Assembly: GCF_025144465.1 (NCBI RefSeq)
Contig: NZ_CP083553.1
Span: 1,982,001-2,046,000, forward strand
Source: Leisingera sp. S132
Lineage (GTDB): Bacteria > Pseudomonadota > Alphaproteobacteria > Rhodobacterales > Rhodobacteraceae
DNA: 64,000 nucleotides
Direction: 5' to 3'
A model generated the notes under the pieces. That model searched no databases. It saw nothing but the letters and a program-made list of their open reading frames with translations, and was not told the origin of the DNA. The translations under genes were made by a program, and so were the position numbers. Shown piece after piece: positions 24,106 to 31,865 of the stretch; within the stretch, counting starts at the first letter, position 1, and each line of letters starts with the position of its first letter.

Positions 24106-24534
24106 TCAGCCTCGCCCCGCGCGCACCGTCGAAAACGAGCGCCCATGTGCATGCTCATGCCGGATGAAATCTGCGCTGCCCGCGCGCTCAGCCAACTGCC
24201 GCCGCAGCTCGTCGTAATCCGCCTTGATTTCCGGGATTGCCCTGCAGCGCGCCTGCACCTGCTTCAGGCCGTACATCACGGTGGTGTGGTGCTGCAGACC
24301 GAGGGCACCAGCGATATCCGTGGTGCTCAGCAGCGTGCGGTTCCTGATCATCGCCATTGCCATTTGCCGAGGCCAGGAAACCCGACGTTCGCGGCTGGGG
24401 CCGGTCAGCTCACCCTTACGGAGCTGATAGTAGACCCGCACCACCTCGATAATCTCCGACACACACAGCTTCCGCTTGGGCGACGGCATTTCCTGCTGCG
24501 AGCCTGATTTCTCGATAATCAAAGGATCAGACAT
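24106..24534 (-). CDS. DnaA domain IV-like DNA-binding protein
   Basis: The 142-residue protein contains RQMAMAMIRNRTLLSTTDIAGALGLQHHTTVMYGLKQVQARC (about residues 55-95), matching the DnaA C-terminal DNA-binding domain. The HHTTVMYG segment corresponds to the DHTTVLHA signature that contacts the DnaA box. There is no AAA+ ATPase domain, so it cannot act as a full initiator. It may recruit or block host DnaA at the nearby origin-like region. Its start overlaps the methylase gene. Confidence 0.83.
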   Translation of the reverse strand: MSDPLIIEKSGSQQEMPSPKRKLCVSEIIEVVRVYYQLRKGELTGPSRERRVSWPRQMAMAMIRNRTLLSTTDIAGALGLQHHTTVMYGLKQVQARCRAIPEIKADYDELRRQLAERAGSADFIRHEHAHGRSFSTVRAGRG

Positions 24535-25861: not shown

Positions 25862-26329
25862 ATGAAACCCGCCAGACATTTCTTGACGGCAGCCGCTGTG
25901 CTGGTCATTAGCGCCAGCCCCCAAGTCGCATTGGCGAAAGTCCCGGAACCGGTTTACGATGAAACCGCTGCCCGCGCGGACTGCACCAAGGAATGGGGCA
26001 GCGACTTTCAGATGATCGAGTATTGCTTGAACAAACGGCACAAAGGATTTCGAACGTTTGAAGCCATTGCAAACGACGCACCAGACAGCCTCGATCCCGC
26101 TCTCACGCTCTGCACCGAGGAGTGGGGCAATGAATGGGAAATGGTCGCGCACTGCGCAAGAAAGCAGTTGCGCGCGATAAGCAGCATGCTTGAACACACC
26201 CAAGACCTCCCGAAGGATGTTGGGGACGTGATCCTTTCGGATTGCGCCAACGAATGGGAACCCGACTGGAAGATGGTTGAGTACTGCATGGGAAAGCAAG
26301 CACGTGCCTGGCGATCCCTGAACAACTGA
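25862..26329 (+). CDS. Secreted protein with three C-x13-C repeats, probable lysogenic cargo gene
   Basis: Start at 25862 with GAAAGGA upstream; 155 residues. Residues 1-24 (MKPARHFLTAAAVLVISASPQVALA) form a clear Sec signal peptide with ALA cleavage site. The mature part has three copies of one unit: CTKEWGSDFQMIEYC, CTEEWGNEWEMVAHC and CANEWEPDWKMVEYC. Each is C-x13-C with a conserved EW and M, followed by a K/R-rich helix. Each unit probably forms a disulfide-clasped helical hairpin in the periplasm or outside. It stands alone on the plus strand between the late operon and the regulators, the usual place of a moron. No function is known to me. Confidence 0.82.
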   Translation: MKPARHFLTAAAVLVISASPQVALAKVPEPVYDETAARADCTKEWGSDFQMIEYCLNKRHKGFRTFEAIANDAPDSLDPALTLCTEEWGNEWEMVAHCARKQLRAISSMLEHTQDLPKDVGDVILSDCANEWEPDWKMVEYCMGKQARAWRSLNN

Positions 26330-26367: not shown

Positions 26368-26658
26368 TCATTCGCCGCCCTCTTGATCTTTGGCAAAATG
26401 GTCCAGAGGGGGAAGCTCAACATCTTTTTCGGATGCCATAGCTAGAGCGGTGCGGTAGATCTTGGCGGCCGTTGAAAGGTGGATTTCGCGCGACTTGACG
26501 CGCTCATCCTCAAACTTCCCCAATGTATTTGGAGCAACGCCAGCCGCCACGCTTAGCGTCGAGGGTTTGATACCTAGCCTTTGCCTGGCTACCCTAAGCC
26601 AAGACCTGAACTCATCCGAGTCAGGCAGGAAGGTCTCTTTTTCGCCCTCTGGCTTCAC
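26368..26658 (-). CDS. Small XRE-type HTH regulator (first of divergent switch pair)
   Basis: The 96-residue protein has a helix-turn-helix at about residues 20-55 (WLRVARQRLGIKPSTLSVAAGVAPNTLGKFEDE). The recognition helix APNTLGKF is almost identical to that of the divergent regulator. There is no LexA-like S24 peptidase domain. A good promoter (TTTACA - 17 bases - TATAAC on the minus strand, 26,724 to 26,696) precedes it, and its -10 box lies inside the operator at 26,682-26,701. It is therefore likely repressed by whichever HTH protein binds there. It is either the repressor or the Cro-like partner. Confidence 0.82.
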   Translation of the reverse strand: MKPEGEKETFLPDSDEFRSWLRVARQRLGIKPSTLSVAAGVAPNTLGKFEDERVKSREIHLSTAAKIYRTALAMASEKDVELPPLDHFAKDQEGGE

Positions 26659-26681: not shown

Positions 26682-26701
26682 TATCACCTTTTGAGGTTAT
26701 A
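26682..26701. promoter_or_regulatory. Phage switch operator O1
   Basis: TATCACCTTTTGAGGTTATA is an imperfect palindrome with arms TATcACC / GGTtATA and a 6-base spacer. It overlaps the -10 box (TATAAC on the minus strand) of the promoter for the 96-residue HTH gene, so binding should block that promoter. Confidence 0.75.
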
Positions 26702-26724
26702 TGTAGCATTGCGAGGTGTGTAAA
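26696..26724 (-). promoter_or_regulatory. Sigma-70 type promoter for the leftward HTH gene
   Basis: On the minus strand TTTACA (26,724-26,719) and TATAAC (26,701-26,696) are separated by exactly 17 bases. Transcription would start about 30 bases before the ATG at 26,658. The -10 box is inside operator O1. Confidence 0.6.
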
Positions 26725-26745: not shown

Positions 26746-26765
26746 TTTCACCCCAAAAGGTGAAA
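26746..26765. promoter_or_regulatory. Phage switch operator O2
   Basis: TTTCACCCCAAAAGGTGAAA has perfect 7-bp arms (TTTCACC / GGTGAAA) around CCAAAA. It lies 34 bases upstream of the rightward HTH gene start, downstream of a TATATT element at 26,737-26,742, where binding would hinder rightward transcription. Confidence 0.8.
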
Positions 26766-26798: not shown

Positions 26799-27128
26799 AT
26801 GGATAATATTTGGGAGAAAAGACGCGCCAACCTGGGCGCCTTGATGGGGTCTAAGCGCATGAAGGCAGCGCAGGTCTGCCAGGCTGCAAAGGTTTCCCCA
26901 AACACCTTGGGGAAGTTCATGCGAGGGGAAAGCAAAACCCTGTCTCAGAAAAGCCTAGAGGCAATTCTGGCAGTACTCGGTTCGAACTTGATGGCGATAG
27001 ACTCCAACAACCCTTTGTCGAACACTAAGACCGAGCTTTTCAAGCTTATCGAGGGAATGTCAGAAGAAGAAGCTATGCGAGAACTTGAGAGAATCTCTAG
27101 TTCTGCGGCTGATCGGTCCGCTTCTTGA
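26799..27128 (+). CDS. Small XRE-type HTH regulator (second of divergent switch pair)
   Basis: From MDNIWEKRRANLGALMG at 26799 the product is 109 residues. The HTH spans about residues 8-55 (MKAAQVCQAAKVSPNTLGKFMRGESKTLSQKSLEAILAVL) with recognition helix SPNTLGKF, shared with the opposing regulator. The C-terminus is a short acidic helix (TELFKLIEGMSEEEAMRELERI), possibly for dimerisation. Like its partner it lacks an S24 autoprotease domain, so RecA-driven self-cleavage is not expected. Which of the two maintains lysogeny cannot be told from sequence. Upstream in-frame codons exist but the shared HTH start favours this Met. Confidence 0.82.
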   Translation: MDNIWEKRRANLGALMGSKRMKAAQVCQAAKVSPNTLGKFMRGESKTLSQKSLEAILAVLGSNLMAIDSNNPLSNTKTELFKLIEGMSEEEAMRELERISSSAADRSAS

Positions 27129-27219
27129 GTTCTTCCAGGTACTTAGCCGCCTGGGCGTCGCTCATCTTCTCCACGAGAGCTTTCAAATCTTCTTTCGCCG
27201 AAGGCACTATGTCACGCAT
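27097..27219 (-). CDS. Very small antisense ORF resembling the C-terminal helix of the HTH regulator
   Basis: A 40-codon frame (MRDIVPSAKEDLKALVEKMSDAQAAKYLEEL...) starts at 27219 and ends inside the 3' end of the rightward HTH gene on the opposite strand. Its DLKALVEKMSDAQAAKYLEEL resembles the ELFKLIEGMSEEEAMRELERI tail of that regulator. This suggests a protein that could pair with it, or a remnant of a duplicated repressor. The ribosome-binding site is weak and no promoter was identified. Confidence 0.35.
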   Translation of the reverse strand: MRDIVPSAKEDLKALVEKMSDAQAAKYLEELKKRTDQPQN

Positions 27220-27267: not shown

Positions 27268-27296
27268 TTGTGGTTCAATACCCAAAATGGTAAATT
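27268..27296 (+). promoter_or_regulatory. Promoter of the luxR-type gene
   Basis: TTGTGG (27,268-27,273) and TAAATT (27,291-27,296) are separated by 17 bases. Transcription would start near 27,302, about 26 bases before the luxR start. Both tandem operators overlap this promoter, one over the spacer and -10, the other over the start point. Confidence 0.5.
27276..27295. promoter_or_regulatory. Phage switch operator O3, weaker half of tandem site at luxR
   Basis: CAATACCCAAAATGGTAAAT keeps the core TACC-N6-GGTA and the CAAAA spacer of the other operators but has diverged outer bases. It abuts O4, giving two sites about 20 bases apart on the same face of the helix, suitable for cooperative binding. 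Confidence 0.5.
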
Positions 27297-27314
27297 TCAC
27301 CCCAAAAGGTGATA
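27295..27314. promoter_or_regulatory. Phage switch operator O4 at the luxR promoter
   Basis: TTTCACCCCAAAAGGTGATA differs from O2 at only one base (position 19). It lies 14 bases upstream of the luxR-type start codon and over the predicted transcription start. Binding of an HTH regulator here should repress the quorum-sensing receptor gene. Confidence 0.8.
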
Positions 27315-27327
27315 CCGCGAGATTTTC

Positions 27328-27945
27328 ATGCAGTTTTTTTCCGACGTACCCGCAGACCTGTCCGACATTGCACCCCACGGCCTCGCACTTGGAATTGGCT
27401 CGTTTCGCACCGGGCAGATTGACGTACACACCACATATTCGAACGAATGGCAGGGCCTTTACCATGAGCGAGGCTGGTTGACCCAGGACCCCGCAGTGAC
27501 CAGCGGCCTTAGCGGCCCCGGTATTCACCAATGGGACGCTGAATCCATCCAGGACGCGGACTTCAAGGACGCCTGCTTCGGTTATGGGCTAAAGTCTGGA
27601 ACTTCGATCACAGACACAATCGCAGGGAGTTCTTGCCTGGTCGGCCTCACTATCAATAAAGCCCCTTCTGAAGCCGCAACCGAAGCCGCAACACGGGCAG
27701 TGCGGGAGGCCCACATGGGATATCTGACCACCAAGGCCCAACTGCTTCTCCCCCAACACATCGACGTAGTTTACCTTGCGGCGAAGGGATACCGCGCCAA
27801 GGAAATCTCTGCGAAACTCGACATTTCCGAAGAAACGGTGAAGCAAAGAAAGACAGCCGTGCAAAGCAAGATCGGGGTCAACAACTTCACCGCCGCGGTA
27901 AACATCTGCGCCATCGCAGGTTTAACCCTTCACCCCATAAAGTAG
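27328..27945 (+). CDS. luxR: LuxR-family acyl-homoserine-lactone receptor/transcription factor
   Basis: The 205-residue protein has the autoinducer-binding domain (about residues 15-130) and a LuxR-type HTH (about 140-200). Ligand-pocket residues are W41, Y45, D54, P55 and W69; spacings W-4-Y, W-13-D and W-28-W equal those of TraR (W57, Y61, D70, W85). The FGYGLKSG segment matches the conserved glycine region. The HTH reads VVYLAAKGYRAKEISAKLDISEETVKQRKTAVQSKIGV, with typical LuxR features. It is shorter than the usual 230-250 residues, mainly at the N-terminus. The start is 13 bases after operator O4, with only a weak GCGAG ribosome-binding site, so expression is probably low and repressed in the lysogen. 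The AHL synthase gene follows 60 bases later. Confidence 0.93.
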   Translation: MQFFSDVPADLSDIAPHGLALGIGSFRTGQIDVHTTYSNEWQGLYHERGWLTQDPAVTSGLSGPGIHQWDAESIQDADFKDACFGYGLKSGTSITDTIAGSSCLVGLTINKAPSEAATEAATRAVREAHMGYLTTKAQLLLPQHIDVVYLAAKGYRAKEISAKLDISEETVKQRKTAVQSKIGVNNFTAAVNICAIAGLTLHPIK

Positions 27946-27966
27946 AGGAAACCCCCGCCTAGGCAG

Positions 27967-27990
27967 TGCAAGTCTTTCTCCTAGTTTGCA
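27967..27990. promoter_or_regulatory. Possible lux-box-like inverted repeat before luxI
   Basis: Arms TGCAA (27,967-27,971) and TTGCA (27,986-27,990) are separated by 14 bases in the 60-base luxR-luxI gap. Inverted repeats of about 20 bases at this place are typical LuxR targets. The arms are short and the match to known lux boxes is loose, so this is only a candidate. Confidence 0.3.
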
Positions 27991-28005
27991 ACTTGGAGAA
28001 TAGAC

Positions 28006-28578
28006 ATGCAGCACAGCGTTGTTTCCTGGAAAACAATCCACGAGCACGGCCAGCTTTGGTGGCTACACCTAAAAATGCGGAAACAGCTCTTTGTTGACGA
28101 AATGCAATGGGCCATTCCTCACACAGAGGAGGCTGAGGCCGACCAGTACGACACCCCCCAAACGCATTATGTCATCAGCCACGCCAACGGCGCTCCGCTG
28201 GCCGCTTCACGCCTCAACCCGACATACGGAAACTTTGGCGATTGGTCCTACATGATCAACGACGCCTGCGAAGGAAAACTTCCAGGCATCCCTGATACGC
28301 TCATGGAAACCCCACCCCGGGAACGCGGAGTTTGGGAGGCAACACGCTTTACTGTTGACCCCAGCATCCCCCAAGCGGAGCGCAATTCAATACTGGCCGA
28401 AAACGCCCTGGCACTTACCGGAGCGGCCAGAACTCTGGGAGCATCAAAACTGATCGCCCTGATGCCGCCGGCATATGTCCGCTGGCTCACCTCGATTGGC
28501 CTGCCAACCACAAAGGCGGGGCCAACAGTTAAGGACGGTCAGGGCAAGAGAATCTGCGTTATGGAAATGGCACTCTAA
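28006..28578 (+). CDS. luxI: LuxI-family acyl-homoserine-lactone synthase
   Basis: The 190-residue protein has all core LuxI residues in canonical spacing: R25, F29, W35, D46, D49 and R69 (equal to R24, F28, W34, D45, D48 and R68 of EsaI), then E111 and R114 in WEATRFTV. The residue usually Ser in E-x-S-R is Thr113. The RLNPT motif is present. The enzyme joins S-adenosylmethionine to an acyl-ACP to form an acyl-homoserine lactone in the cytoplasm. Thr in place of Ser, and other pocket details, do not allow the acyl chain to be predicted. GGAG lies eight bases before the ATG. The gene is flanked by the LuxR-type gene and a phage operator with terminator, inside the prophage control region. Confidence 0.95.
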   Translation: MQHSVVSWKTIHEHGQLWWLHLKMRKQLFVDEMQWAIPHTEEAEADQYDTPQTHYVISHANGAPLAASRLNPTYGNFGDWSYMINDACEGKLPGIPDTLMETPPRERGVWEATRFTVDPSIPQAERNSILAENALALTGAARTLGASKLIALMPPAYVRWLTSIGLPTTKAGPTVKDGQGKRICVMEMAL

Positions 28579-28585
28579 TCACGCG

Positions 28586-28624
28586 ACAACCCCGAAGGGA
28601 TTAATTTGACCCTTTCGGGGTTGT
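28586..28624 (+). terminator. Terminator-like hairpin after luxI
   Basis: ACAACCCCGAA-GGG and CCCTTTCGGGGTTGT form a long stem with one bulge and an 11-base loop. It is followed by TTT and then the operator instead of a long T-run. It probably ends or reduces luxRI transcription into the early operon. Confidence 0.7.
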
Positions 28625-28625
28625 T

Positions 28626-28645
28626 TATCACCTTTTAAGGTGATA
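28626..28645. promoter_or_regulatory. Phage switch operator O5 before the early operon
   Basis: TATCACCTTTTAAGGTGATA has perfect 7-bp arms (TATCACC / GGTGATA) and a TTTTAA spacer, the best-formed of all copies. It lies 31 bases upstream of the first early gene, so it should control the plus-strand early operon. A clear -35/-10 pair could not be chosen; TTGACC lies at 28,606 and TTGTTT at 28,621. Confidence 0.8.
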
Positions 28646-28676: not shown

Positions 28677-28928
28677 ATGACACAGCATACCCAGCAGACC
28701 GCACCCGGCAAGGCAGGCGCTTGCCAGGTTCTCCACCTCGGAAATTCGCCCCGCTTTGCCGCCCTGCCGGATGGCGCCCTGCACGATCCCGCGAATGGCG
28801 TTACTGAAATCGCGCGCCGCCGGGCAGAACGTGCCGCCGCCCTTTCCGCCCGCATCCAGCGCCGTATCGCGGAAATGGGATACTCCACCCGGCCGCCGGC
28901 ACTCATCGCACCGGGGGCGCTGGCATGA
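28677..28928 (+). CDS. Early phage protein of unknown function
   Basis: The 83-residue product starts MTQHTQQTAPGKAGACQVLHLGNSPRFAALPDGALHD, with GGAGAAGG seven bases before the ATG. The middle is an Ala/Arg-rich helix (VTEIARRRAERAAALSARIQRRIAEMG). It is the first gene downstream of operator O5 and its stop overlaps the next start (ATGA), so it opens the early operon. No family recognised. Confidence 0.65.
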   Translation: MTQHTQQTAPGKAGACQVLHLGNSPRFAALPDGALHDPANGVTEIARRRAERAAALSARIQRRIAEMGYSTRPPALIAPGALA

Positions 28929-29266
28929 CCCGCCCCACCCCGCAGGAGGTTTACGCAACCGCGCAGCATATGGCGGTTGCCAGTGATATCTGCCGCGCTG
29001 TGATCTTTTCCGGTCTCGGCGGCACGCTGATCCCGAATGAATCGCAGCCCATGACCCCTGACGAGGCGTTCTATAAGGTCACCCTTTACGGTGTCACCGG
29101 GTCTGGCCTCGATCAGGTCCAGGCGCTGGCCGACTGGATCCGCCAAGCCAAGGATTTGCCACGCGACACCCGCACCGCCCGCGCCACCGACGGCCGCCCG
29201 GACTGCCCGTACAACGGCGCAGCCCCACTGCCGCCCGCCCGCACACGAGTTGCCGAGGCCGCTTGA
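28925..29266 (+). CDS. Early phage protein of unknown function
   Basis: The 113-residue product (MTRPTPQEVYATAQHMAVASDICRAVIFSGLGG) begins within the stop of the preceding gene by a 4-base overlap. It has a helical pattern with DEAFYKVTLYGVTGSGLDQVQALADWIRQAKD in the middle and a Pro/Ala/Arg-rich tail. No enzymatic motif or membrane segment is seen. The following 120 bases before the next gene hold no other supported gene. Confidence 0.6.
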   Translation: MTRPTPQEVYATAQHMAVASDICRAVIFSGLGGTLIPNESQPMTPDEAFYKVTLYGVTGSGLDQVQALADWIRQAKDLPRDTRTARATDGRPDCPYNGAAPLPPARTRVAEAA

Positions 29267-29389
29267 AACCTGCGCCTTAGCACACTGGCCGGGGGCACGT
29301 CCCGAAACGCCCCGCCAAATCCGCCGGGCGCGGCAAAGTCCACCACTCACGCCACCGCGCCGCGCCCAGCAATGCACAAAGGCAAGCCT

Positions 29390-29668
29390 ATGACCACAGA
29401 ACCCAAACAGCGCTTTGACGATCTGCCGCCATCGACCCAGGCAGGCATCCTCTGCAATGACCCGCGGTTTCAGACCTTCGCAGCCAAACGCTGCGGATAC
29501 CCCGGCGGCCAGTTCACCCAGGGCGCTGCAGCGGAATACGTCCGCCAGGTCTGCCTGGTCAGCAGCCGCTGCGACCTGCTGCACGACCAAGCAGCCGCCG
29601 AACGCTTCCAGGCCCTGCGCACCGAGTTCGACGCATGGACCGGCAAACTCGCAACCCCACGCCCCTAA
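29390..29668 (+). CDS. Early phage protein of unknown function
   Basis: From ATG at 29390 (AAAGG ten bases upstream) the product is 92 residues, MTTEPKQRFDDLPPSTQAGILCNDPRFQTFAAKRCGYPGGQFTQGAAAEYVRQVCLVSSRCDLLHD. The pattern DLPPSTQAGILCNDPRF...A.RCG.PGGQFTQ..AAEYVR..C.V.SR is familiar from early genes in Rhodobacterales phages but has no known role. Four cysteines are present without a clear metal site. Confidence 0.65.
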   Translation: MTTEPKQRFDDLPPSTQAGILCNDPRFQTFAAKRCGYPGGQFTQGAAAEYVRQVCLVSSRCDLLHDQAAAERFQALRTEFDAWTGKLATPRP

Positions 29669-29689
29669 CCCACCAACAGAGGACACGAC

Positions 29690-30025
29690 ATGCCCCTGCC
29701 CAATCACACAATCAACTTCCTCGAATTTCTTCAGTCATTCCGCCGCGGCCAGCTCCTGCATGAAGCTGACGACCACCTTGAAAAGGTGATCAGCGCTATG
29801 GCCGAAACCGGTGGCGATGGTGAAATCACAATCAAACTGCCCTTCAAGCGGAACAAGGCAGGACAGATCGAATGCACGCCCAAGATCAGCTCCAAAACAC
29901 CGCAACGGCAAATGGGCACCGGCATCTATTTCGCTGACGACGATGGCCGCCTCAGCCGCCGCGACCCGAACCAAATGGACATTGAAGACGAAATTGAGCG
30001 GCGACGCCCTGCCGCCACTGAATGA
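29690..30025 (+). CDS. Early phage protein of unknown function, upstream of the DUF2303 gene
   Basis: The 111-residue product starts MPLPNHTINFLEFLQSFRRGQLLHEADDHLEKVISAMAETGGDGEITIKLPFKRNKAGQIECTPKI, with AGAGGA before the ATG. An N-terminal helical part is followed by a beta-rich part. In many phages a gene of this type lies directly before the DUF2303 gene, which suggests that the two act together. No function known. Confidence 0.65.
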   Translation: MPLPNHTINFLEFLQSFRRGQLLHEADDHLEKVISAMAETGGDGEITIKLPFKRNKAGQIECTPKISSKTPQRQMGTGIYFADDDGRLSRRDPNQMDIEDEIERRRPAATE

Positions 30026-30051
30026 TCACCCTGCAACCAAAGGAATAGACA

Positions 30052-30870
30052 ATGCAGAACACCGACGCCAACCTGCCCAAACAAGCAATGGACACAGCAA
30101 TTGAAGCTGCCCGGCTGGCAAACCCAGTAATCACCGGACCGGACGGACGGCAGCACGCTTTCATTCCTGAAGGCTTTGACCTCAAGGATATTTCCGACCC
30201 GAACCTCCTGCCCGAGCACATCAGACAGGCCGTTATCCTCGACGACCGGGAATCCCTGACCAACTATGTCAACCGCTTCAGCGACGGCCGATCAATCCTG
30301 ATCGCCGACTATGACGCCGGGCTGATCCGCGCGCACCTGGACTGGCACAACGACAACAGCACCGACCTGCAGCGCCAGCACGCATCCCACACGGCAACCC
30401 TAAAACTGCGCAACAGTGAGGAATACGACCGCTGGAACAAGATGGAAGGCGAAATGCACTCGCAGGAGGCATTCGCCCTGTTCATCGAAGAGAACGTTGC
30501 GGATATCAGCGACCCGGATCACTCGGTGATGCTAGAAATCTGCCGCGACCTCGAAGCCACCCAGGACGTCTCTTTCAAGAGCGGCATCCGGCTGGAAAAC
30601 GGCGACCGCACCTTTGTCTTTGAGGATGAAACCAAGGTCAAAGGCGACATGACTGTGCCAACGGAAATCGGCCTCTGCATCCCGCTCTATCAAGGCGAGG
30701 AACCGGCCGATATCCGCGCCAAGTTCCGCTTCCGACCCACCGCCAACGGCCTGATGCTCGGCTTCCGCTGGCATCGTGTCGAATACATGCGCCAGGCCAC
30801 ATTTGCGGCGATGGCACATCAGACAGCCGAAGACACCGGCCGCCCCTACTTCTTTGGCCGCACGTCCTAA
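30052..30870 (+). CDS. DUF2303 family phage protein
   Basis: The 272-residue protein matches the DUF2303 pattern: a beginning with VITGPDGRQHAFIPEGFDLKDIS, then SLTNYVNRFSDGRSILIADYDAGLIRAHLDWHND, YDRWNKMEGEMHSQEAFALFIEENVADI, and a beta-rich C-terminus (IGLCIPLYQGEEPADIRAKFRFRPTANGLMLGFRWHRVEYM). The family is common in early regions of phages of alphaproteobacteria. Its biochemical role is not established. GGAAT(AG)A upstream of the ATG gives a modest ribosome-binding site. Confidence 0.85.
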   Translation: MQNTDANLPKQAMDTAIEAARLANPVITGPDGRQHAFIPEGFDLKDISDPNLLPEHIRQAVILDDRESLTNYVNRFSDGRSILIADYDAGLIRAHLDWHNDNSTDLQRQHASHTATLKLRNSEEYDRWNKMEGEMHSQEAFALFIEENVADISDPDHSVMLEICRDLEATQDVSFKSGIRLENGDRTFVFEDETKVKGDMTVPTEIGLCIPLYQGEEPADIRAKFRFRPTANGLMLGFRWHRVEYMRQATFAAMAHQTAEDTGRPYFFGRTS

Positions 30871-30886
30871 CCCTATCGGGTTTCTC
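30869..30886 (+). terminator. Short terminator-like hairpin after the DUF2303 gene
   Basis: AACCC-TATC-GGGTT followed by TCTCTTTCT. A second hairpin with perfect 8-bp arms (GCCCCCTC / GAGGGGGC) lies at 30,892-30,914 without a T-run. Together they may reduce transcription into the ASCH and PrtN-like genes. Confidence 0.45.
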
Positions 30887-30938
30887 TTTCTGCCCCCTCA
30901 TCGATCGAGGGGGCATCGACGGAAACCAGGAGGTTCAA

Positions 30939-31280
30939 ATGCCCCGCAACATGTCATTCGCACTGACCACGGAACAGATGCGCAACCGCACCAAGACGGT
31001 CACCCGCCGCTTTGGCTGGTGGTTCCTGCAGCCCGGCGACGTGGTGAATGCCTGCGTGAAGTGCATGGGCCTCAAGCCAGGTGAGAAGGTGCAGCGCATC
31101 TGCCAGATTCGCATCACCAGCACCCGCCGCGAACCCCTCAACGCCATCACAGTAGAGGACTGCACCCGCGAAGGCTTCCCCGAATATGCGCCGACCGATT
31201 TCATCAACATGCTCGCCGCCCACCGCGGCTGCCCACCTGACGAACCCGTGAACCGCATCGAATTCGAATTTCTGGACTGA
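30939..31280 (+). CDS. ASCH-domain protein
   Basis: The 113-residue protein (MPRNMSFALTTEQMRNRTKTVTRRFGWWFLQPGDVVNACVKCMGLKPGEKVQRICQIRITSTRREPL) matches small phage ASCH-type proteins. K-x-VTRR near the N-terminus, GD, and a beta-barrel core with the R-I-T pattern are visible. ASCH domains are PUA-like and thought to bind RNA or modified nucleotides. AGGAGG upstream of the ATG gives a strong ribosome-binding site. Confidence 0.78.
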   Translation: MPRNMSFALTTEQMRNRTKTVTRRFGWWFLQPGDVVNACVKCMGLKPGEKVQRICQIRITSTRREPLNAITVEDCTREGFPEYAPTDFINMLAAHRGCPPDEPVNRIEFEFLD

Positions 31281-31296: not shown

Positions 31297-31557
31297 ATGA
31301 ACACAGCCTTTTTGCTTATGGCACAATACAACGGCCGCGCAGTCATTCCTGCGGATGTTGTGGTGCAAGACTATTTCCAGCACCTGACCCTGCCGAAGTT
31401 TCTTCGCAAGGTGAATGAAGGCCAGATCGCGCTGCCGCTTGTCTCGATCGAGGCAAGCCAAAAGAGCGCAAAGGGAGTTCACCTGCAGGATCTGGCCGAG
31501 TACCTGGACAGAAGGCGGGAGGAAGCCCAACGGGCATTCCGCCAGATGCACAGCTAG
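31297..31557 (+). CDS. PrtN-family (pyocin activator-like) regulator
   Basis: The 86-residue protein MNTAFLLMAQYNGRAVIPADVVVQDYFQHLTLPKFLRKVNEGQIALPLVSIEASQKSAKGVHLQDLAEYLDRRREEA matches the PrtN family throughout: N-terminal FLLMAQY, the F..L....F..KV..G.I.LP core and L..L..Y.D..R. In Pseudomonas PrtN activates R/F-pyocin (defective phage tail) genes. Here it ends the early operon under operator O5, 17 bases after the ASCH gene. It could act as the phage's activator or excisionase-like protein; the homology supports regulation but not the exact target. Confidence 0.85.
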   Translation: MNTAFLLMAQYNGRAVIPADVVVQDYFQHLTLPKFLRKVNEGQIALPLVSIEASQKSAKGVHLQDLAEYLDRRREEAQRAFRQMHS

Positions 31558-31611: not shown

Positions 31612-31865
31612 GCAGTTCCGGGCAGGGAACAACTAGACTCGGAACAACTTTCGGGACAACACACACAATTAAACACCAGCAAGATACTGATTTATTGTGT
31701 ATTTTTCCAGAAACCCGCCCCATCCATCATCGGTGCCACGCTCAACCGCGCGGCCTGGTGCAGGGGGGCGAAATCAGTCATGCCGCGCCATATAGGCCCT
31801 GCACGCCCGCCTGCCAAGCCGGTCTGCTTTGGTGAGCCCTGAACACGCTTCCCCTTCTGTACAGC
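31612..31865. other. Gene-free prophage/host junction with repeated GGAACAACT element
   Basis: No supported gene lies in these 254 bases. GGAACAACT occurs directly repeated at about 31,627 and 31,642, and GGGACAAC follows at about 31,655, a pattern that could be integrase arm-type sites near attR. The composition changes from AT-richer (to about 31,705) to GC-rich host-like sequence after it. No tRNA remnant was recognised. The exact attachment core cannot be set without the other end. Confidence 0.4.

Follow-up and report, generated by a model that had tools for sequence, protein, structure and literature searches.

The luxR and luxI genes of Leisingera sp. S132 that were examined here lie inside a 38.5-kb prophage at dusA, the name used for the dihydrouridine synthase gene at the left end of the element. 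Together with hth, xre and a convergent open reading frame (ORF) of 40 codons, they form a five-gene module that is accompanied by four near-identical palindromes, and the integration site is empty in relatives. On balance it is likely that the module makes and senses an acyl-homoserine lactone (AHL) which would hold lysogeny when lysogens are common, and the convergent ORF is predicted to encode a SinI-like anti-XRE microprotein that would release the switch. Modules of this kind have been known since 2013 and were explained in 2026; by analogy, the present example is another such module that likely works. Positions are those of the window, the whole 64,000-nucleotide stretch of DNA that was analyzed.

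The luxR-luxI pair resides in a prophage control region

The two ORFs of the pair were found where originally predicted, at 27328-27945 (LuxR-type) and 28006-28578 (LuxI-type), between phage helix-turn-helix (HTH) regulators, of which two lie to the left, and early genes to the right that include phrog_204, DUF2303 and excisionase matches. The features of the region, other than the palindromes, are:

26368..26658, minus strand: hth, transcribed divergently from xre and encoding a small helix-turn-helix protein (phrog_2328, HTH_31)
26696..26724, minus strand: promoter-like TTTACA-17-TATAAC before hth, found by eye, with the second hexamer within palindrome 1
26799..27128, plus strand: xre, XRE-type regulator of 109 amino acids with a predicted C-terminal helical hairpin (PF13443, AlphaFold model)
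27097..27219, minus strand: 40-codon ORF, convergent to xre and between xre and luxR, predicted anti-XRE microprotein
27268..27296, plus strand: promoter-like TTGTGG-17-TAAATT before luxR, found by eye and not listed by the consensus scan
27328..27945, plus strand: luxR, LuxR-type receptor-regulator of 205 amino acids (ORF, Pfam)
28006..28578, plus strand: luxI, LuxI-type acyl-homoserine-lactone synthase of 190 amino acids (ORF, PF00765, phrog_31881, solved relatives)
28587..28623, plus strand: strong hairpin after luxI, likely terminator (folding energy)
28677..31280, plus strand: rightward early genes, among them phrog_204 (29690-30025) and DUF2303/phrog_210 (30052-30870)
31297..31557, plus strand: excisionase (phrog_1300, E 4e-30)
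31720..31741, no strand: candidate attachment site, which repeats the 5′ end of dusA imperfectly over 22 columns with a longest exact run of 11 bp

The DNA outside the pair also is phage in character. Minus-strand genes from 2.2 to 20.9 kb gave matches to families of lysozyme, tail fiber J, tape measure, head decoration, protease/head, portal and terminase proteins; a match to holin falls below its cut-off. The phage is likely a siphovirus, because the tail genes are of the lambda J type and there is no sheath among the proteins scanned. The integrase gene lies beyond the left end of the window (L036:13379-14542, equivalent to C1:1975379-1976542), where it adjoins the 5′ end of dusA. No exact repeat of at least 13 bp linking the prophage ends was found. 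The distance from dusA to the DctM gene (start 31866) is 38,516 bp in this genome and 75-265 bp in 8 of 21 genomes of the same genus (G001, G004, G005, G015, G016, G017, G019 and G020), in which the site is empty. The other 12 have the two genes 2 to 60 kb or more apart or on different contigs, except G008, in which the search detected no DctM gene at the threshold applied. As the interval is empty in 8 of the 21 and varied in length in others, dusA looks like an integration hot spot. Gene content and empty sites in relatives bear out the original claim that a genuine prophage carries a complete synthase-receptor pair within its control region.

The hth product matched phrog_2328 (transcriptional repressor) with an E value of 6e-4 and HTH_31 with an E value of 0.043, the latter below cut-off, and is 81% and 70% identical to its counterparts in the related modules L034 and L033, respectively. 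By analogy with the modules of Phaeobacter inhibens T5, hth would be the lysis-side gene. The xre product, searched with a query from 26742, upstream of the preferred ATG, scored 29 bits against PF13443 (cut-off 22; E 1.2e-6). No cI-type repressor was detected among the prophage genes scanned, which were a subset of the ORFs. A consensus promoter scan returned one promoter where 1.2 were expected, and listed neither of the by-eye sequences before hth and luxR. With respect to a three-gene xre-luxR-luxI operon served by one promoter, as in the Roseobacter prophage modules (PMC13345283), a promoter-like sequence and a palindrome precede luxR in the window, at which point the scan lists no promoter. 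The hairpin at 28587-28623 has a folding energy of -25.6 kcal/mol (z -5.0) that was equaled by 1 of 200 shuffles; its loop is too long for the scan.

Two neighboring genes also were noted. The plus strand at 25862-26329, opposite to the phage genes and adjoining hth, is predicted to encode a small protein in which a motif of the type EWG/EWE...MxxxC recurs in three repeats; a distant relative (28%) is present in L081. The phage gene at 24106-24534 on the minus strand has the DnaA C-terminal DNA-binding domain PF08299 as its sole Pfam match (E 2.3e-18).

The synthase and the receptor

The luxI product satisfied the family threshold of PF00765 (34.8 bits; cut-off 24), matched phrog_31881 with an E value of 2.9e-36, and has as its nearest solved structures the AHL synthases 3p2f/3p2h (E 3.1e-9) and 6wns (E 2.7e-5). 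Residues R25, F29, W35, D46, D49, R69, E111 and R114, which had been singled out originally, all are present in the window protein and are invariant across the 25 sequences of alignment A3. We presume that these conserved residues have the catalytic role generally assigned to them, and we take the gap between R69 and E111 to be longer in this protein than in LuxI/EsaI. The window produced no match among named phage records when searched as DNA or with the LuxI protein, and scans of genome contigs with LuxI and with the LuxR alignment yielded no relative. The host genome carries another PF00765 gene (C1:927458) to which the phage LuxI showed no match at an E value of 1e-3. A host duplication as the source of the pair is ruled out on this basis, and no matching host copies, an outcome that would have undermined the original prediction, were found. 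Of the LuxI relatives, P0004 of P. inhibens and the L033 protein are 77% and 78% identical, both slightly below the 80% limit by which LuxI types A-J are delimited (PMC13345283).

The C-terminal GerE HTH domain of the luxR product (PF00196) scored 38.1 bits, above the cut-off of 23.5, whereas the autoinducer-binding domain (PF03472) scored 17.8 bits, below the cut-off of 23. Residues W41, Y45, D54, P55 and W69, which along with the HTH were the grounds on which the receptor was recognized originally, are present and are conserved in the three close relatives that were aligned. Inspection of the module DNA by eye for a LuxR binding site revealed nothing convincing.

Related modules

Nineteen xre-luxR-luxI modules, found by similarity to LuxI or XRE and not amounting to a census, were compared; 14 were used for a cross-match matrix and five, L095-L099, were held out. 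Their small ORFs were selected by visual inspection of ORF lists. Among the loci that were dropped, no xre was seen with the luxI of L078, L040, L042 and L043 or with the Paracoccus-type luxR-luxI of L046-L048 and L051; L045/L083 have a luxI that is not preceded by luxR; a readable luxI ORF was lacking in L050; and L092, L100 and L101 have an XRE but no luxR-luxI. Duplicates were L072 (of L033), L044/L082/L094 (which hold the L076 module), and L089, L090, L091 and L093 (the window, L034, L038 and L039, respectively). Alignment A8 omits L095 and L097, and A9 omits L095 and L038.

The L034 module of L. caerulea G004, a species that we take to be the same as P. caeruleus, is 81% (hth), 93% (xre), 95% (small ORF), 85% (luxR) and 84% (luxI) identical to that of the window, and the portal proteins are 21% identical. 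In L033/L088, luxR and luxI are 78%, xre 79% and the small ORF 60% identical, and the phage possesses sheath and baseplate genes. These comparisons indicate that the module and some small flanking genes are kept beside different structural genes. L. caerulea G004 has two different modules, L034:14960-17290 in the group of the window (group 1) and L039:8499-10748 in group 2. Locus L083 (G115:C1:639152) has a LuxI of the phage group with no luxR upstream in the ORF list, and perhaps is a remnant.

A small ORF convergent to xre

The 40-codon ORF runs opposite to xre, with which it shares the final 32 bases of that gene, and is conserved in L034 and L033. When the 30 codons outside the xre overlap were compared, the window and L034 differed at six sites, all of which are third positions and synonymous (pS 0.33, pN 0.00); the values with L033 were pS 0.69 and pN 0.21. 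The ratios for other pairs were 0.39 (L080-L037), 0.47 (L077-L079) and 0.64 (L038-L039). The codon pattern indicates that the small ORF is under purifying selection in the group to which the window belongs, and a chance ORF is rejected there. The frequency of the ORF in the xre-luxR slot rejects chance less strictly. A convergent small ORF occupied this slot in all 19 modules examined if TTG and GTG starts were allowed. Under a strict rule (ATG start, at least 38 codons, set positions) it was present in 15 of the 19 where 3.7 were expected, a nominal P of 2e-8 which derives from mononucleotide shuffles of the spacer and treats related modules as independent. L076 fails the strict rule because of its start position, and L079, L080 and L081 fail because of TTG starts. 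The L097 ORF does not overlap xre.

A profile of seven small ORFs retrieved eight database proteins at E values of 0.01 or less. One, P0109 of P. inhibens, is labeled 'Transcriptional regulator' and is identical to the L033 small-ORF product; other matches were from Pseudovibrio and Pelagimonas. None of ten small ORFs reached a Pfam cut-off, the best match for the window being ParE_toxin (18.4 bits; cut-off 23). Paracoccus-type luxR-luxI pairs in L046 (560-748, minus strand) and L047 (reverse complement, minus strand) have a small ORF divergent from luxR with similar helical end motifs; these pairs are beside an rplQ-like gene, without xre in the stretch examined, and the small ORF was not seen in L048 or L051.

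Four palindromes flank the module genes

Four near-identical palindromes of 20 bp, the sequence of each occurring once in the window, are located at the following places:

26682..26701, no strand: palindrome 1, TATCACCTTTTGAGGTTATA, candidate operator on the hth side
26746..26765, no strand: palindrome 2, TTTCACCCCAAAAGGTGAAA, candidate operator before xre
27295..27314, no strand: palindrome 3, TTTCACCCCAAAAGGTGATA, between the small ORF and luxR
28626..28645, no strand: palindrome 4, TATCACCTTTTAAGGTGATA, before the rightward early operon

The palindrome class has eight matches in the window compared to 0.79 expected, a number attained in none of 100 shuffles, and five of the eight are inside the module at four places. 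In a scan with a fixed rule, L034, L033, L074 and L075 each had members of the class at the four positions seen in the window, L073 had them at three and L076 had none; L038 and L039 of group 2 had one site each. Palindromes 1 and 2 are 64-65 bp apart in all six group-1 modules that have both. Different palindromes occupy some of these positions in the modules of group 2 (L077, L079) and group 3 (L037, L080, L081). By eye, palindrome 1 of the window overlaps the promoter-like sequence of hth and palindrome 3 adjoins that of luxR. Groups 1 and 2 have similar recognition helices in XRE despite their different palindromes; hth and LuxR differ between groups. As hth covaries better with the palindromes, XRE may not be the protein that binds them.

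Resemblance of the small protein to the XRE C-terminus

Alignment of the small protein of the window with the XRE C-terminus gave a score of 43 compared to a shuffle mean of 20.7, and none of 2000 shuffles reached it; the L034 protein aligned with its own XRE C-terminus yielded the same outcome in 2000 shuffles. Numbers reaching the score in 1000 shuffles were three for L033, one each for L073, L074 and L075, five for L076, 18 for L080, 23 for L081, 468 for L077 and 772 for L079. Values of z with the cognate XRE were 5.2 (L037), 2.8 (L039), 0.7 (L038), 0.0 (L077) and -0.5 (L079), so that mimicry by this measure is absent in L077, L079 and L038. Comparison of group-1 profiles placed residues 6-36 of the small protein on residues 74-104 of XRE (P 2.4e-6, probability 89%); those of group 2 aligned in the same region with a P of 0.005 and a probability of 7%. 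In the five held-out modules the score was reached by 32 (L098), 168 (L095), 437 (L099), 1727 (L097) and 1956 (L096) of 2000 shuffles, a combined P of 0.085, and only L098 stood out. Overall, most group-2 modules and four of the five held out show a weak resemblance or none.

The mean z of small ORFs on XRE C-termini was 3.4 for the cognate protein, 3.1 within the same group and 1.1 for other groups, and the excess of same-group over cross-group pairs was reached by 5 of 5000 label permutations. On the DNA-binding region of the cognate XRE the mean z was -0.02, with a value of 3.3 in L081. Matching to the cognate XRE holds at group level only, as single cross-group pairs scored as high as cognate pairs or higher: L037 on L075 (5.8; cognate 5.2), L079 on L034 (4.6; -0.5), L038 on L076 (4.8; 0.7), L080 on L033 (4.8; 2.8) and L081 on L073 (4.2; 2.2). 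Part of the resemblance could reflect general amphipathic-helix composition.

AlphaFold modeled the small protein as a helical hairpin (helices 8-17 and 21-36; mean pLDDT 81) and the XRE C-terminus also as a helical hairpin (helices 72-85 and 89-108) at a pLDDT of only 58-73. Foldseek gave no match at an E value of 0.001, and its weak matches include SinR DNA-binding domains. The SinR-SinI structure 1b0n, at rank 25, had an rmsd of 13.9, and a like placement of the hairpin is not supported by this match.

Comparison with described systems

The synthase-receptor arrangement had been thought rare or undescribed, which does not stand. The pairs on P. inhibens T5 prophages were noted in 2013 as quorum-sensing systems II and III, with a homolog of one in P. 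caeruleus (PMC4062626), and their mechanism was set out in a preprint of July 2026 (PMC13345283). According to the latter, hth and a divergent xre-luxR-luxI set are present in two T5 prophages, whose LuxI enzymes both produce AHLs (signals of the C12:2 and C12:1 types) that maintain lysogeny; the lysogeny promoter requires LuxI and LuxR; and the phages are induced when the systems are blocked. Activation in Phage A depends on XRE, which in Phage B is mildly repressing. Roseobacter prophages exchange modules, and luxI was present in 53 of 93 predicted prophages (PMC13345283). The original suggestion that the phage could both emit and sense a signal, and thereby count lysogens, fits these experiments on two other prophages.

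The window has the divergent hth and the xre-luxR-luxI order of the Roseobacter prophage modules, and resembles T5 Phages A and B in the placement of these genes, the last three on one strand, in the control region of a prophage of a Roseobacter host, as well as in having no cI-type repressor among the genes scanned. It differs in that Phage A is Mu-like and Phage B myovirus-like, whereas the window has lambda-J-type tail genes. The convergent ORF, the separate promoter-like sequence before luxR and the four palindromes are described here for the window; neither the fifth gene nor the four palindromes was found in the accessible portion of PMC13345283. In Aeromonas phages the control of prophage lysis likewise involves XRE, LuxR and a small gene of opposite orientation, and the XRE-LuxR pairs activate this smORF, which inactivates the cI repressor; in contrast to the window, there is no luxI, the smORF is upstream of xre, and AHL promotes lysis (PMC10432266). 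The accessible text of PMC8224337 and PMC11288001 reports no luxI gene. SinI of Bacillus subtilis is a small protein that shares the heterodimer surface of the SinR repressor and disables it (PMC3163267). In the window and group 1 the small protein similarly resembles the C-terminal hairpin of an HTH regulator, but its gene is convergent and in a phage, there is no Pfam homology, and binding is predicted; it is not filed as SinI, as it has no Pfam SinI match. The arbitrium system of SPbeta phages also has a lysogen-made signal that would favor lysogeny, but the signal is a peptide and the proteins are unrelated (arbitrium is mentioned in PMC13345283).

Proposed mechanism and alternatives

LuxI would make an AHL, and LuxR-AHL would drive the xre-side promoter, as the T5 modules suggest. 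By the same analogy, the xre-luxR-luxI side would be on in lysogens and kept on by lysogen AHL, and hth would open the lytic side. The positions of the palindromes suggest operators that serve hth, xre, luxR and the rightward early operon and to which XRE, hth or both may bind. The microprotein is predicted to fold like the XRE C-terminus and to pair with the XRE hairpin as a SinI-SinR-like heterodimer; produced from the xre-luxR interval, it would tie up XRE and the palindromes would be released.

Less probable, yet credible, is an ordinary four-gene module in which the ORF is translated for another role, such as binding hth, LuxR or RNA polymerase, or acting in the manner of the Aeromonas phage smORFs that inactivate cI. 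The module of the window has the published T5 architecture (PMC13345283), a counter-oriented smORF that inactivates cI is known in Aeromonas (PMC10432266), and the mimicry breaks down in several modules of group 2 and of the held-out set. Against these points are set the strong XRE resemblance in group 1 and L037 (z 5.2) and the failure to find a cI-type repressor among the genes scanned, a subset of the ORFs. It is improbable that the microprotein stabilizes or co-activates XRE, as co-repressor or co-activator, and does not disable it: a like hairpin could complete an oligomer, and XRE is required for activation in Phage A (PMC13345283), but SinI-SinR, the closest precedent, is inhibitory (PMC3163267).

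The convergent stretch also might act as an antisense RNA or as the terminator region of xre, with the ORF incidental. The opposed overlap with the end of xre agrees with this reading, which we consider very improbable in view of the third-position synonymous changes and the excess of ORFs in the slot. Host quorum-sensing genes inserted into the prophage and unrelated to lysogeny control are scarcely conceivable: the host does carry a LuxI-type gene, but the phage LuxI does not match it, the same class of palindrome marks luxR-luxI, hth, xre and the early operon, and luxR-luxI travel with hth and xre. The reading that we favor remains a probable AHL-dependent lysogeny switch with a predicted anti-XRE microprotein.

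Implications

Prophage LuxI-LuxR switches have been worked out just now, in one strain, as four-gene modules (PMC13345283). A tentative proposal, which we would rate at rather under even, is that the quorum-sensing switches of Roseobacter prophages are five-gene devices, each with a microprotein convergent to xre and divergent from luxR that is derived from or co-evolves with the XRE hairpin, a viral counterpart of SinI-SinR that converts a density signal into all-or-none lysis and travels with the swapped cassette. The palindromes offer a concrete list of candidate operators. Should the fifth gene encode an anti-XRE microprotein, it may already be included in the xre-luxR-luxI reporter constructs that have been published, and the differing roles of XRE, needed in Phage A and mildly repressing in Phage B, might depend on it. 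The module would then provide SinI-SinR-like control with a second example, in a virus whose host is Gram-negative.
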